Shown: piece after piece, positions 34,817 to 39,368 of the stretch
Numbering within the stretch: the stretch's first letter is position 1
How the letters are laid out: every line of letters begins with the position of its first letter
NCBI GenBank assembly: GCA_006738865.1
Contig: AP019701.1
Coordinates: forward strand, 2,538,001-2,602,000
DNA: 64,000 nucleotides
Reading direction: 5' to 3'
Origin: Allostella sp. ATCC 35155
GTDB taxonomy: Bacteria > Pseudomonadota > Alphaproteobacteria > ATCC43930 > Allostellaceae
Translations under genes and position numbers: made by a program
The notes under the pieces: generated by a model
What the model was told of the DNA's origin: nothing
The model's input: the letters and a program-made list of their open reading frames with translations, nothing else
The model's database searches: none

Positions 34817-36511
34817 CTAGATAGCTGCCCCGGCCCCGATTTGCAAGCGATCGGCCCCAGATGAACCGTTCTGGCGTTCCGCCGGGCCGTCCATCCGGCC
34901 CGATCCGGCATTCAGTCGGGCCAGTCTCGCCAGCAGGAGTTCGGGCACTTCCTCCACGATCGCCACACGACCGGCAAAAATACGCCCCTCATTGCCGTCC
35001 AGCGTGAGGACGCTGCCTTCGGGAAATGCCTGGTCACCGATGACGATTCGCCTGCCGGGCTCGTCGATCGCCAGCGCCTCGCAACCCACGAGGCATACCT
35101 TGCCGAGCTGGCGAGCGACGACGGCAGCGTGCGAGGTGCGGGCGCCGTGCCGCGTCAGCAGTCCGTCGGCAAGGTCGAGCGCGGCGATGTCTCGCGTCTC
35201 CGCATCGCGCCGGATGAGGATGACGGGGTTGCCGGCATCGCGCTGTCGCCGAACGCCGTCCTCGTCGAAGGCGATCGCCCCCGCCACGACGCCCGACGCG
35301 GCGGAAGCGGCGGAAGCGAGCGGCACGAGCGTGCCGCCGTCGGCCGCCGCAATCCTGTGGACGGTGAGGGTTCGCGCATCGAGCGTCCGGGTGCGTGCGC
35401 GGGCCGTCTCGGCGTCGATCAGTCCCGCATCGAGCATGTCGAGGGCGATGCGCGCGGCCGCGAGCGGGGTCCGCTTGCCGTCGCGCGTCTGCAGGAGATA
35501 GAGGATCCCGTCCTCGATCGTGAACTCGAAATCCTGCATGTCGGCGAACTGTCGTTCCAGGGTGGAGGCCGCCGCTTGCAGTTCGGCCCACACGCCCGGA
35601 GCCAGCGACGGCAGATCACCATTTCCCCGGGCGTCGCGCCGGCCGCTGACGACATCCTCGCCCTGCGCATGGAAGAGAAAGTCGATCCATAGTGCAGGGT
35701 CGCCGGTGCTCGGGTTGCGCGTGAAGCCGACCCCGGCACCGGAGAGCCCCCCGGCGTTGCCGAACACCATGCGCTGCACCGTCACCGCGGTTCCCATGTC
35801 GTGGCGAATGGCGTTTCGGGTGCGATACGCTGCGGCCTTGTCGCTGCTCCACGAGCGGAATACCGCAGCGATAGCCTCCGAAAGCTGCTGCTCGGCAGAT
35901 TGCGGGAACGGGCGGCCGGATTCGCGGGCAAATGTCTCGCCGTGCCGCCGGGCGAGTTCCCGCAGTCGGGCGAAGTCCAGCATCCGCTCGTCGTCGCCGT
36001 TCCGGATCGCAGCGAGGTCCGCTTCGAAGCAGCGGCCATCGACGCCGGCCACGACCTCGCCGAAGCCGGCGATGAGGCGGCGGTATGCGTCCCACGCCAG
36101 GCGCGGGTGGCCGGTCAGCCGGATGAACCCCGGCATCGTCGCATCCGTCAGCCCGATATTCAGAATCGTCTCCATCATGCCCGGCATGGAGACGGGTGCC
36201 CCGGACCGCACGGACAGCAACAGAGGGCGGCGCACGTCGCCCAGCCGCAGGCCGGACACCCGCTCGAGTTCGGCGAGGGAGCCGCTCCAGACATCGCGGG
36301 TGACCATTTCCGGCGCGGCGCAGAACCCGGTACCGATCACGAAGGCCGGAGGAACATTCAGGCCCGCTGCGGCCATTCGGCCGAGGTTGAACGCCTTGGA
36401 CCCGAGGGCGGCCGGGCCGGCGCCCTCGGGCAGAGGGCTGCCGCCGGCAATCGCTACGACGATGAGGGTCGGATCCTCCGGCAGGTCCGGCGGTCGTGAT
36501 CGCTTCCTCAT
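34817..36511 (-). CDS. PPDK-like PEP-synthase family protein lacking the PEP/pyruvate domain
   Basis: This 564-residue protein matches only the N-terminal two-thirds of pyruvate, phosphate dikinase. The ATP-grasp region spans about residues 35-350 (GSKAFNLGRMAAAGL, SVRSGAPVSMPGMMETILNIGL, MVFGNAGG, GFTRNPSTGDP, HAQGEDVVSG, LQTRDGKRT). The swivelling phosphohistidine domain spans about 400-515, with His461 in GARTSHAAVVA. It ends in a ~45-residue tail where a full PPDK (near 880 residues) would continue into the PEP/pyruvate TIM barrel. It could therefore phosphorylate its own His from ATP, but the acceptor is unknown. It overlaps the upstream 645-residue gene by 4 bp (ATGA). Confidence 0.85.
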   Translation of the reverse strand: MRKRSRPPDLPEDPTLIVVAIAGGSPLPEGAGPAALGSKAFNLGRMAAAGLNVPPAFVIGTGFCAAPEMVTRDVWSGSLAELERVSGLRLGDVRRPLLLSVRSGAPVSMPGMMETILNIGLTDATMPGFIRLTGHPRLAWDAYRRLIAGFGEVVAGVDGRCFEADLAAIRNGDDERMLDFARLRELARRHGETFARESGRPFPQSAEQQLSEAIAAVFRSWSSDKAAAYRTRNAIRHDMGTAVTVQRMVFGNAGGLSGAGVGFTRNPSTGDPALWIDFLFHAQGEDVVSGRRDARGNGDLPSLAPGVWAELQAAASTLERQFADMQDFEFTIEDGILYLLQTRDGKRTPLAAARIALDMLDAGLIDAETARARTRTLDARTLTVHRIAAADGGTLVPLASAASAASGVVAGAIAFDEDGVRRQRDAGNPVILIRRDAETRDIAALDLADGLLTRHGARTSHAAVVARQLGKVCLVGCEALAIDEPGRRIVIGDQAFPEGSVLTLDGNEGRIFAGRVAIVEEVPELLLARLARLNAGSGRMDGPAERQNGSSGADRLQIGAGAAI

Positions 36512-38445
36512 CGATGCCCCCCGATCCGGCTGAAGGCAAGCTCGCGCACGCCATAGCTCGTGCCCAGCAATGCATCGGTGGCGGCCTCGATCGCCTGGGC
36601 CAGTTCGGAGGTGAGGGCGAGTGTGACGGGGTCGTCGAGATGACGGGCGGCCGCGCTCCGCACCTCCCGCAGGAGGTCGTCGCACTGCTGCTCCGCTTCC
36701 GCGGCACGCCACGACACGGCAAGGAATGCCTCGTGATCCTCCGCCGTCCCGCCATCACGCAGAATTCCGGCGATCGCCAGGGCACGGACATGATCGTGCA
36801 CGGCCTCGCAGGCCCGATTCGCCAACTGGAACAGACGGTCGCGGATCTCGCCGTTCCACCCCCGGTGGTGGCCTTCGCTGATCAACGACAGCAGGAACGC
36901 ACCCTCTTCGAGCGCATCGGCGATGTCGTCCGCGCGCTCGATGGCGCGCGTGAAAGGCACCCACCCCTGGCTCCGCTCGGCGCGCTCGCGCGAGCGCATG
37001 ACGAGCATATCCGCCTGCCGCTCCCAGCGTTTGGCGCGACGCGCAAACTCCGCCGCAGCCGCGGCCTCGCGCTCCCACCCGTAGGCCAGCGCGTCCCGGA
37101 TGCCCTCGGCCAGTTCCGAGCAGAAGGCGGCATGCTCGCTGAGCAGGCCGAACGCGTCCTGCTGGCGCCCCACATGGCGGAGCAGGAGCAGGCGGATCGA
37201 ATCCGCGATGCGCGGCAGTGGCTGCCGCTGCTCCATCGCCTCGTGGCACGCGCTCAGTGCCTCCAGCATGAAGGCGCGGGCCTGCTCCTCGCCAAGGACG
37301 GTGTCGAGCCGGTCTCCGATGCGGAAATGCTCGCTGCCGACCGCTTCCATCGCTCCGAACAGGAGTTGCGCCCCACCCGCCTCGAGCCAACCCATGTGCC
37401 CGATCCCGCTGCGGGCGCTTTCGGTCAGGAGAGCCGCCGCTCCCCGCTTGCCGAGCAGGAGGCGAAGCCGCTTGCGCGCCCGGTTCCAGTCGATGAGGAA
37501 GACGATGTGCGCGCCGAGGCGCTCGAGCGCCTGGAGCAACCCGACTTCGTCATCGCAATCGAAGACGGCAGTGCCGACCTGATAGGCGCCACCGGCGTTC
37601 AGCCCCGGCGTCGTGCGGGCGGAGACACCGGACCATGTCGCACCATCCTCTACCAGCAGCGCCTGAAAGAAGGCGAAGCGCTGCGGATGGAGATCGGAAT
37701 AGGTCAGCGAGAGGCGCAGCCCCTCAACCTGAATCACGAGCACATGGGCGTCGTTCGTGCCGATGTCGTTCTGGATCAGGAGGCGTTCGCCGTCCCGGGT
37801 CGCGGCGGTGTCCAGGCCAGGATGATCCAGCTTCAACAGCCGGGTGCGGTTCAGCCCGTGCATGAAGGCCACGACACGGGAGCGATCCGCGGGATCGAGC
37901 TGCCAGACCCGCGCGCCCTCGACCAACTCTTCGGCAATGTCGGCCGCCAGCCGGTTGATGGCCTTGTGCAGGTCCATCACGAGGATATGGAGGCTGTCGC
38001 CAACCTCCCTCCGGCCGCTCGTCAGCCTGTCGAGCTGGTGCGAGGCGATCCTGTCGGGATCGAGGTGATCGAGCCAGTCGCACCAAGTCTCGACCCGGGA
38101 CCGCAGTGGTGCCGCAGCTTCGCCGTCCAGCGGCTCGCCCATGCGCCGGAGATCAGCAGCCAGCTGCTTCGCAATCCGGTCAAACCCGTCCAGATGCAGC
38201 ACGGTCCCGTCGAGGCGGCCCGCGCCCGGCATGTCCAGCAGCCAGGGCGCCTCCAGCTGCGCGGCGGCGTATTCCCGGCGGAGGTCGGGGGCGTCCCCGT
38301 GGCCGTTCGCAGCGTGAGTCCAGGCCGCCTGCACGACGGTCAGATAGAACTTCAGACGGTCATTGGCTGCGAGCGCTGCCTTGATCTGGGCAGGACGCAG
38401 CAACTGCGTCCGGCCGAAGGCGGCGACGGCTCCGGTCTTCTCCAT
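36508..38445 (-). CDS. Uncharacterised 645-residue protein with PhoU-like C-terminus
   Basis: No named family is recognised over the full length. Residues 1-230 look helical and charged. Residues about 235-370 look like a compact alpha/beta domain (VLVIQVEGLRLSLTYSDLH, GAHIVFLIDWNRARKRL, GKRGAAALL). The C-terminal ~200 residues are helical with PhoU/DUF47-like acidic heptads (WERQADMLV, IERADDIADALEE, AEQQCDDLL), which in PhoU proteins bind metal clusters. There is no signal peptide or membrane segment, so it is probably cytoplasmic. It lies upstream of the half-PPDK gene with an ATGA overlap, which implies a joint function in phosphoryl transfer or phosphate sensing; that is an inference. 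Confidence 0.7.
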   Translation of the reverse strand: MEKTGAVAAFGRTQLLRPAQIKAALAANDRLKFYLTVVQAAWTHAANGHGDAPDLRREYAAAQLEAPWLLDMPGAGRLDGTVLHLDGFDRIAKQLAADLRRMGEPLDGEAAAPLRSRVETWCDWLDHLDPDRIASHQLDRLTSGRREVGDSLHILVMDLHKAINRLAADIAEELVEGARVWQLDPADRSRVVAFMHGLNRTRLLKLDHPGLDTAATRDGERLLIQNDIGTNDAHVLVIQVEGLRLSLTYSDLHPQRFAFFQALLVEDGATWSGVSARTTPGLNAGGAYQVGTAVFDCDDEVGLLQALERLGAHIVFLIDWNRARKRLRLLLGKRGAAALLTESARSGIGHMGWLEAGGAQLLFGAMEAVGSEHFRIGDRLDTVLGEEQARAFMLEALSACHEAMEQRQPLPRIADSIRLLLLRHVGRQQDAFGLLSEHAAFCSELAEGIRDALAYGWEREAAAAAEFARRAKRWERQADMLVMRSRERAERSQGWVPFTRAIERADDIADALEEGAFLLSLISEGHHRGWNGEIRDRLFQLANRACEAVHDHVRALAIAGILRDGGTAEDHEAFLAVSWRAAEAEQQCDDLLREVRSAAARHLDDPVTLALTSELAQAIEAATDALLGTSYGVRELAFSRIGGHR

Positions 38446-38522: not shown

Positions 38523-39368
38523 TCAGCCGACGCTCGCGCGTTCCGCGACGAATTCCTGGAAGGTGCCGCCGGTCGGCCGGCTGTCTCGCCATGCGGCATA
38601 GGCGCGGTTGAGGGCCCGCTTGTCCTCCAGCGATCGCCGGAACAGTTCGCGGATCGCCGGATCGCGGATGCCGAGCCCGTCCGCGGCGAGGCGGGAGAGG
38701 CAGGTCGCATAGCCCCGGTCGGCACGACGGTCCGAGTCCGGCGCGTGGCAGATCGAGCCGTCGCGCACCCGGTAGTCGTGCAGCGCCTCGGCCGTGACGG
38801 GCAGCCCGCCTGCGCGGTCGATGGCCCGAAGGTTGAACGGCAAGTCGTCGCAGAGTTCGACGTCGGCATCCCAGCCGGCCATGCAGTCGCGGCGCACCAG
38901 CGCCATGATGGGAACCGAAGTGGCGAGAAAGCCGGCAGCGTCCAGGACACGGCCTGGCTCGCCGGGCGGAAATAGGTGACCGACAAGCTCGCCCGTCGCA
39001 TCCGCGACGACGCGGACATTGTCGGCCACGGCACCCCGGGCTTCGGCCGTCGGCACCAGTTGCTCCAGGCGGCGAGGCATCCAGCTGTCGTCGGCGTCGA
39101 GCGGGGCAGCCACTCCGCCGCGCGCGGCAGCCCAGGCGGCATTGCGCGCAGCCGGCGCACCGCTCCGCGGCGCGGGCGTGCGGACATGCCGCAGGCGGCG
39201 GTCGTCGAGTCCCTCGCCGGCCAGGATCGCGCCATAGTCGCGGTCGTCGTCGGCGGCGATCACCGCCTCCCAATCGGTGAAGGTCTGATCAAGCAGGCTC
39301 CGCACGGCCCGGCCGATCGTCGCCTCCGCGTGCCAGGCGGGAATGACGACGGAGACGCGCGGCGGCAC
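38523..39368 (-). CDS. Glycosyltransferase family 2
   Basis: This 281-residue protein has a GT-A fold: VSVVIPAWHAEATIGRAVRSLLDQ at the N-terminus, ARNAAWAAARG, and the metal/nucleotide-binding PLDADD at about residue 92. GT2 enzymes transfer sugars from nucleotide donors to glycans or lipids; the substrate is unknown. There is no membrane segment. The GTG start lies 1 bp after the dnaE stop, so it may be translated from the dnaE transcript, an unusual partner for a glycosyltransferase. Confidence 0.85.
   Translation of the reverse strand: MPPRVSVVIPAWHAEATIGRAVRSLLDQTFTDWEAVIAADDDRDYGAILAGEGLDDRRLRHVRTPAPRSGAPAARNAAWAAARGGVAAPLDADDSWMPRRLEQLVPTAEARGAVADNVRVVADATGELVGHLFPPGEPGRVLDAAGFLATSVPIMALVRRDCMAGWDADVELCDDLPFNLRAIDRAGGLPVTAEALHDYRVRDGSICHAPDSDRRADRGYATCLSRLAADGLGIRDPAIRELFRRSLEDKRALNRAYAAWRDSRPTGGTFQEFVAERASVG

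Follow-up and report, generated by a model that had tools for sequence, protein, structure and literature searches.

The window analyzed here, a 64,000-nucleotide stretch of contig AP019701.1 from Allostella sp. ATCC 35155, carries on its minus strand two overlapping genes that probably encode a new two-part phosphate-transfer enzyme. The downstream gene encodes P0001, a protein corresponding to the donor half of pyruvate phosphate dikinase (PPDK), and the upstream gene encodes its partner, P0002, in which a new N-terminal domain precedes a C-terminal domain of PhoU/DUF47 type. The domain content of the pair, its intact donor site, the linkage of the two genes, the new domain and the PhoU fold are established by sequence analysis and structure prediction. 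The pair recurs across many proteobacterial genera, its genes adjoining each other in far more than 100 of the genomes examined, and this conservation is the reason for regarding the association as more than fortuitous. We favor a reading in which the two proteins form a two-protein dikinase with its acceptor site in the new domain of P0002, and assign it a probability of roughly 0.55.

Both genes are long, intact open reading frames, as the original prediction had noted. P0002 (645 residues) is encoded at 36508-38445 and P0001 (564 residues) at 34817-36511, with its ATG start codon at 36511; the two share the four bases of an ATGA start/stop overlap at 36508-36511. The open reading frame called mechanically for P0001 opens at a GTG at 36712, which yields a 631-residue numbering in which the swivelling domain spans residues 496-576; the numbering used here follows the ATG start, making the phosphohistidine residue 461. 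P0001 matches the Pfam families PPDK_N (E-value 2.2e-37) and PEP-utilisers mobile domain (E-value 1.3e-16), the latter being the swivelling phosphohistidine domain at residues 429-509 (34985-35227), and Pfam detects no PEP-utilizers_C barrel (PF02896) in it. The full-length PPDK model TIGR01828 is covered over positions 17-509 of 865, with a score of 472.5 bits that falls below its cut-off of 843.45, and the alignment to Clostridium symbiosum PPDK (1kbl) extends over 1kbl residues 17-511 only, pairing His461 (codon at 35129-35131) with the phosphohistidine His455. These three comparisons agree with the earlier proposal of a PPDK-type ATP-grasp and His461 swivel that end before the phosphoenolpyruvate (PEP)/pyruvate barrel. 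Since the best PEP-synthase model reaches 62.3 bits, against 472.5 for TIGR01828, P0001 is, judged by its sequence, of PPDK type rather than PEP-synthase type.

The donor site of P0001 appears complete. In an alignment of the window protein with 73 of 79 named homologous halves, in which matches of at least 430 residues were retained, K39, R102, E329, Q341 and R343 are present in 74 of 74 sequences, D327 in 72 (E in the other 2), and T459 and H461 in 72 (gaps in the other 2). We take the PPDK residue numbers and catalytic roles assigned to these eight positions from general knowledge of the enzyme. P0001 thus shares with PPDK the ATP-grasp with its catalytic Lys, Arg, Asp, Glu, Gln and Arg, and the swivel domain with its TSH phosphohistidine motif; PPDK, in contrast, carries the PEP/pyruvate barrel on the same chain, whereas P0001 has neither that C-terminal barrel nor a model score above cut-off, belongs to a separate clade and has an overlapping partner gene in nearly all loci.

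The C-terminal domain of P0002 (residues 421-645; 36511-37185) is predicted to adopt a PhoU/DUF47-type fold, in line with the PhoU-like, acidic C-terminus proposed originally. Residues 364-641 of the P0002 model superimpose on 3l39 with a Z-score of 23.3 (root-mean-square deviation 2.5, 204 aligned residues), and a profile search with the C-terminus also retrieves 3l39 (E-value 2.1e-6). The only Pfam match of P0002, to DUF47/PhoU_div (PF01865) at residues 433-597 (E-value 0.0031, 17.4 bits), lies below the gathering cut-off of 24.4. The domain has in common with PhoU/DUF47 proteins (PF01865; 3l39, 2olt, 4q25) both the helical-bundle fold and the E/D-xxx-D motifs, which bind metals in PhoU. E475/D479, E585/D589 and E620/D624 are found in 73 of 73 aligned sequences, and at a fourth motif position 506 is D in 70 and E in 3, with D510 in 72. 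The E(D)XXXD motif is described as a hallmark of PhoU in the excerpted text of PMC5686610. The P0002 domain differs from these proteins in being part of a 645-residue protein, behind a new domain of 420 residues. Short proteins (frames of 214-341 residues) are also hit by the partner profile, through its C-terminal part only, with a best E-value of 7e-16.

The N-terminal region of P0002 (residues 1-420; 37186-38445) appears to be an undescribed family, which bears out the description of the first two-thirds of the partner as novel. Its window sequence matches no family in Pfam or NCBIfam, and the N-domains of 60 relatives produce only scattered weak matches to these collections (best E-value 0.0013), none of them convincing. 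A PDB profile search with residues 1-420 returned nothing at E ≤ 10, and PDB fold searches with the full P0002 model and with the 1-420 model left the N-domain without a match at E ≤ 0.001. The structure predictions themselves are of good confidence, with a mean predicted local distance difference test score (pLDDT) of 85.3 for the whole protein, from 10 sequences, and of 90.2 for residues 1-420, from 60 sequences. A likeness of residues 181-317 to the C-terminal domain of T4 MotA (Z-score 9.2, root-mean-square deviation 3.3, 105 aligned residues, 5% identity) was discarded as being near the level of unrelated pairs. Residues invariant across the 60 sequences include D150, H153, D158, H160, H208, Q225, N226, D227, H234, H253, R256, D319, N321, R324 and H350, in relatives whose sequence identities lie at 38-66%. 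An invariant polar set of this kind is the pattern that would be expected of a catalytic or anion-binding pocket.

The two genes are closely linked well beyond the window. A pattern scan with the partner alignment of one genome per species, covering 84,980 species, yielded 515 relatives. The analysis took up the best 80 of them, whose carriers include Mesorhizobium, Azotobacter, Thauera, Halomonas, Paraburkholderia, Cupriavidus, Tistrella and others; Azotobacter vinelandii and Paraburkholderia xenovorans are two species with the pair. A half-PPDK lies directly downstream of the partner in 79 of these 80 named loci, several halves being cut by a contig end, and at the sole miss (L072) the contig stops 157 bases past the partner. 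The four-base overlap recurs in 74 of the 79 homologous loci. A second set of 56 regions comprised 5 class genomes and 51 genomes of one distant family, in which 57 of 341 genomes were positive and the partners are 33-39% identical to P0002; the half-PPDK stands beside the partner in 56 of 56. At most three candidates were scored per genome in this set and in the phylum sample described below, so that their genome counts may be low. The association of the two genes across bacteria, proposed originally as a check, is thus borne out by both sets.

The distribution of the pair at different taxonomic levels is patchy. Six of the 190 class-sample genomes carry the partner; they also give the six highest P0001 scores (407-1222 bits, the next being 373). 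In the order sample, 8 of 43 genomes have a partner match, 5 of them with the half adjacent, one (G208) cut by a contig end and 2 without a half; G208 contains a 260-residue P0001-like piece (47% identity) that is not assignable. In the phylum sample, the whole partner was found in 4 of 398 genomes, the window's included, and 15 more were matched by the PhoU part only. Even within the window's own genus, one genome (G190) lacks the partner, and two others encode partners 58% (G192) and 38% (G191) identical to P0002. This patchiness suggests horizontal transfer of the unit. The pair is also found on plasmids, in Aquabacterium olei (L163) and Methylocella tundrae (L164). The two plasmid records annotate the partner as 'phosphate transport regulator' or 'DUF47 family protein' and the half as 'PEP/pyruvate-binding domain-containing protein', a misleading label because the half-PPDK has no PEP/pyruvate barrel.

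The partnered halves are also set apart phylogenetically. In a tree of 49 sequences, taken from 100 available rows, a branch supported at 100/100 separates 26 partnered halves, that of the window included, from the 23 other rows, which are full PPDKs and unpartnered short forms. This bears on the idea that P0001 belongs to a split or truncated PPDK, forming PEP with the help of a barrel from elsewhere, or else is a decaying PPDK copy. P0001 is clearly of PPDK descent, short PPDK-like frames without a partner do exist (L125, L126, L127), and in two loci (L035, L082) the half is read in two frames, through sequencing error or local decay. The window genome, however, also encodes a full PPDK and a PEP synthase, and its four PEP-barrel matches all lie in long proteins with a histidine motif or domain of their own, namely these two and two that we read by eye as enzyme-I-type. 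A lone barrel protein, which the original prediction had named as the finding that would undo it, was sought in the window genome as assembled and none was found, and we therefore set aside a split PPDK. Decay is rejected in view of the conservation of the halves as one clade with intact catalytic residues, as was argued originally from the integrity of the two proteins. Both versions of the idea are strongly disfavored, and we regard this as the least credible of the explanations weighed here.

Among the short forms, those at L125 (3936-5639, plus strand) and L126 (3950-5647, minus strand) are frames of 566-568 residues from two genomes of ~1.4 Mb in which no partner turned up, and they share a long branch in the tree. 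The one at L127 (3233-5146, minus strand), a 638-residue frame without partner located near a gene that by eye resembles an acyl-CoA ligase, may represent a dikinase system of its own.

The swivel histidine of PPDK accepts the beta-phosphate from ATP and delivers it to the barrel. With the barrel gone, the donor half intact and a conserved new domain supplied by an overlapping gene, the simplest reading is that the N-domain of P0002 serves as the acceptor module. Its further support comes from the retained donor residues, the linkage and overlap of the genes, the separate clade of the halves, and a row of metabolic genes in one genus discussed below. Under this two-protein dikinase scheme, the ATP-grasp of P0001 would bind ATP and, as its conserved residues suggest, pass the beta-phosphoryl group to His461 as in PPDK, leaving AMP; pyrophosphate would be made with phosphate if PPDK rather than PEP-synthase chemistry has been kept. 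The gene structure would then have the His461 swivel dock on the N-domain of P0002 instead of on a barrel of the same chain, the N-domain holding the acceptor in a pocket lined by the invariant His, Asp, Arg and Asn residues. The PhoU-type C-terminus might tether the reaction partners or gate the reaction with metal or phosphate status, and the reaction could run towards ATP, like that of PPDK. Swivelling of the PPDK histidine domain is itself documented in the consulted part of PMC5556012.

Several known systems resemble parts of this scheme. The two-component dikinases HpeHI, CreHI and phenylphosphate synthase PpsAB, as presented in the excerpt of PMC12167813, divide a dikinase over two proteins, both of them needed, with a dedicated acceptor module of the kind we infer for the pair. 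According to the same excerpt, the swivel of HpeHI resides with the substrate domain and its ATP-grasp stands alone, whereas in the pair ATP-grasp and swivel sit together on P0001, leaving the putative acceptor module on a protein of its own, where it is joined to a PhoU-type domain; the pair is, moreover, PPDK-like and not rifampin phosphotransferase-like. A PDB fold search with the P0002 N-domain gave no significant match, to a rifampin phosphotransferase-type acceptor domain or to any other structure. Rifampin phosphotransferase, in the portion of PMC4844700 consulted, has in common with the putative scheme the ATP-grasp, the swivel histidine and a non-PEP acceptor domain, and differs in being a single chain with another acceptor domain. 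The pair would accordingly fall outside both PPDK, for want of a barrel, and the HpeHI subfamily, by its different split; that it works like both is the best-supported guess.

The genes surrounding the pair offer hints about the acceptor. Counting genes within two positions of the pair, three to five positions away and further, the first 80 loci contain CHAD/CYTH proteins at 10, 2 and 0, SixA-like histidine phosphatases at 5, 0 and 0, the polyhydroxybutyrate (PHB) synthase PhaC at 12, 2 and 2, Pta-MaoC at 7, 6 and 0, acetate kinase at 4, 2 and 1, FabI at 7, 3 and 0 and P-type ATPases at 5, 2 and 1. Among immediate neighbors, PhaC (8) and CHAD (7) are most frequent upstream (n = 69), and Pta (5) and MaoC (5) downstream (n = 58); the Pfam scan covered these immediate positions and excluded 8 of 77 upstream neighbors (71-235 residues, one being the PhaC fragment of L036) and 11 of 69 downstream neighbors (72-327 residues). 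The second set holds acetate kinase and phosphoketolase at 7 loci each, P-type ATPases at 3, PhaC at 2 and Pta at 1, and its most frequent immediate neighbors (n = 101, those below 90 residues excluded) are DUF155 (6), acetate kinase (5) and GGDEF (4). In the first set, 13 of 80 loci have genes of acetyl-phosphate metabolism (phosphoketolase, acetate kinase, Pta) within five genes of the pair, and in the second set 8 of 56 do; phosphoketolase was noticed within the second set itself, which is thus no independent confirmation of the theme. P values for neighbors are illustrative only, since the families were chosen after inspection, the loci counted had also supplied the seed genes, and loci that share a genus cannot be treated as independent.

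Among the functional hints for the pair, the gene row of genus g179 is the clearest. In six of its loci (L186, L200, L206, L208, L213, L215), phosphoketolase, acetate kinase, partner and half follow one another on one strand, with acetate kinase and partner 82 bases apart in L186, L206, L208 and L215, and with acetate kinase called as two pieces in L213; in L178 the partner is adjoined by phosphoketolase, and L181 has acetate kinase and Pta in divergent orientation. Acetyl-phosphate and PHB neighbors would point to energy metabolism, perhaps at low oxygen, and CHAD neighbors point to polyphosphate. From this minority of loci with informative neighbors, we favor as acceptor either polyphosphate or a small compound, a phosphate or acyl-phosphate, from acetyl-phosphate/PHB metabolism. 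The PHB and polyphosphate themes may touch, because a CYTH-CHAD protein has been located on PHB granules (PMC3783465, as excerpted), neither theme being general.

A number of observations weigh against the two-protein dikinase. The N-domain has no acceptor-binding fold recognizable by PDB fold search; all 8 acetyl-phosphate loci of the second set come from genus g179, which contributes 10 loci to the set; the CHAD and SixA-like neighbors do not recur there (0 of 56 for each); and all themes together, within five genes, reach only 32 of 80 and 13 of 56 loci, the remaining loci and, by eye, the window showing none of them. To these is added genus g172, the one real exception to the pairing that was met, in which two genomes (G207, 99% complete; G210, 78%) have a partner without a half beside it. 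The G207 contig begins 1.7 kb downstream of the partner, and in G210 more than 9 kb downstream were read. Each genome has a single P0001 match, of full-PPDK type (42% identity), and the G207 partner retains all 28 key residues listed. The g172 partner may therefore work without the half, perhaps with full PPDK. The idea of a dedicated, co-inherited partner stands on the 79 of 80 and 56 of 56 adjacent loci, and this genus speaks against strict dependence. The partner-only loci of g172 are L147 and L148; a genome search revealed no half-PPDK for them, and the partner of the L147 genome keeps the key residues.

The g172 genomes, whose only PPDK-like match is the full-length one, would also suit a reading in which the partner acts on full-length PPDK or PEP synthase as a regulator, much as the PPDK regulatory protein does, and P0001 serves as an adapter. 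All six partner genomes of the class sample likewise hold a second, full-PPDK-sized P0001 match. The partner has no match to a regulatory-protein family in Pfam or NCBIfam, however, and of the 138 class genomes in which P0001 has a match, mostly a full-PPDK-sized frame, 132 lack the partner, so that we hold this reading very improbable. A polyphosphate enzyme is somewhat less so, if still quite unlikely: polyphosphate on the His/Arg-rich N-domain would be the acceptor or, in reverse, the donor, ATP and phosphate being exchanged for AMP and pyrophosphate with growth or decay of the chain. Given a general rate of 117 CHAD matches in 150 genomes, and assuming 3,800 genes per genome, the 10 of 80 loci with CHAD/CYTH within two genes, from about seven lineages, compare with ~0.07 expected; PPK2 lies nearby in L038 and L067, the partner has a PhoU-type domain, and CHAD is a polyphosphate-binding domain according to the excerpt of PMC6537752. 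Polyphosphate was at one point the leading theme, built on the first 80 loci, and was demoted when the second set returned CHAD/CYTH and SixA at none of its 56 loci and PPK2 at one, at position -6; the only CHAD match of the window genome, moreover, is ~87 kb from the pair, and the post hoc choice of families noted above applies here in particular.

Of the readings other than a dikinase, a signalling phosphorelay deserves most attention, and even so we consider it rather unlikely. P0001 would phosphorylate its partner, for example on a His or Asp of the N-domain, and the PhoU-type domain would relay an ATP, AMP, phosphate or pyrophosphate signal to other proteins, with no small-molecule product. 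The PhoU-type fold with its E/D-xxx-D motifs is consistent with such a role. So are seven partner histidines, each conserved in 97% or more of 73 aligned sequences, and the SixA-like histidine phosphatase genes that lie no more than two genes from the pair at 5 of 80 loci, Halomonas accounting for three. Arguing in the opposite direction, no known receiver or signalling family is matched by the N-domain; among the top 25 immediate-neighbor families of either set, neither phosphate transporters nor sensor kinases are prominent; and SixA-like genes are missing from the 56 loci of the second. In the Halomonas loci (L039, L040, L041), a gene oriented divergently to the pair encodes a SixA-like part joined to a CHAD domain. 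The seed genes of the neighbor counts were checked with Pfam, which finds only CHAD in the Halomonas protein; its SixA-like part rests on a phmmer match.

No description of the pair was found in the open-licence literature under the topics of PPDK with PhoU, DUF47, polyphosphate, phosphohistidine or truncated forms, in keeping with its original designation as a candidate undescribed system. The farthest-reaching form of the two-protein dikinase is a new class in which a PPDK-derived donor half serves a new acceptor domain under PhoU-type control, and ATP plus phosphate and AMP plus pyrophosphate are exchanged against acetyl-phosphate or polyphosphate pools at low oxygen or energy. This full version is doubtful, and our estimate for it was lowered slightly because the acetyl-phosphate loci of the second set all belong to one genus. 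If true, it would represent an unrecognized bioenergetic enzyme across many proteobacterial genera. Identification of the acceptor would extend the dikinase family by a new reaction, and it could give PhoU-type domains, whose mode of action is still debated, a concrete biochemical partner.

In the window, the pair is flanked on one side by a gene that we presume from its translated sequence to be rpsB and on the other by a family-2 glycosyltransferase gene (38523-39368, minus strand), on the same strand and 77 bases upstream of the partner. The glycosyltransferase family is absent from the top immediate-neighbor families shown, and by eye a similar gene lies at position +2 in several g179 loci.

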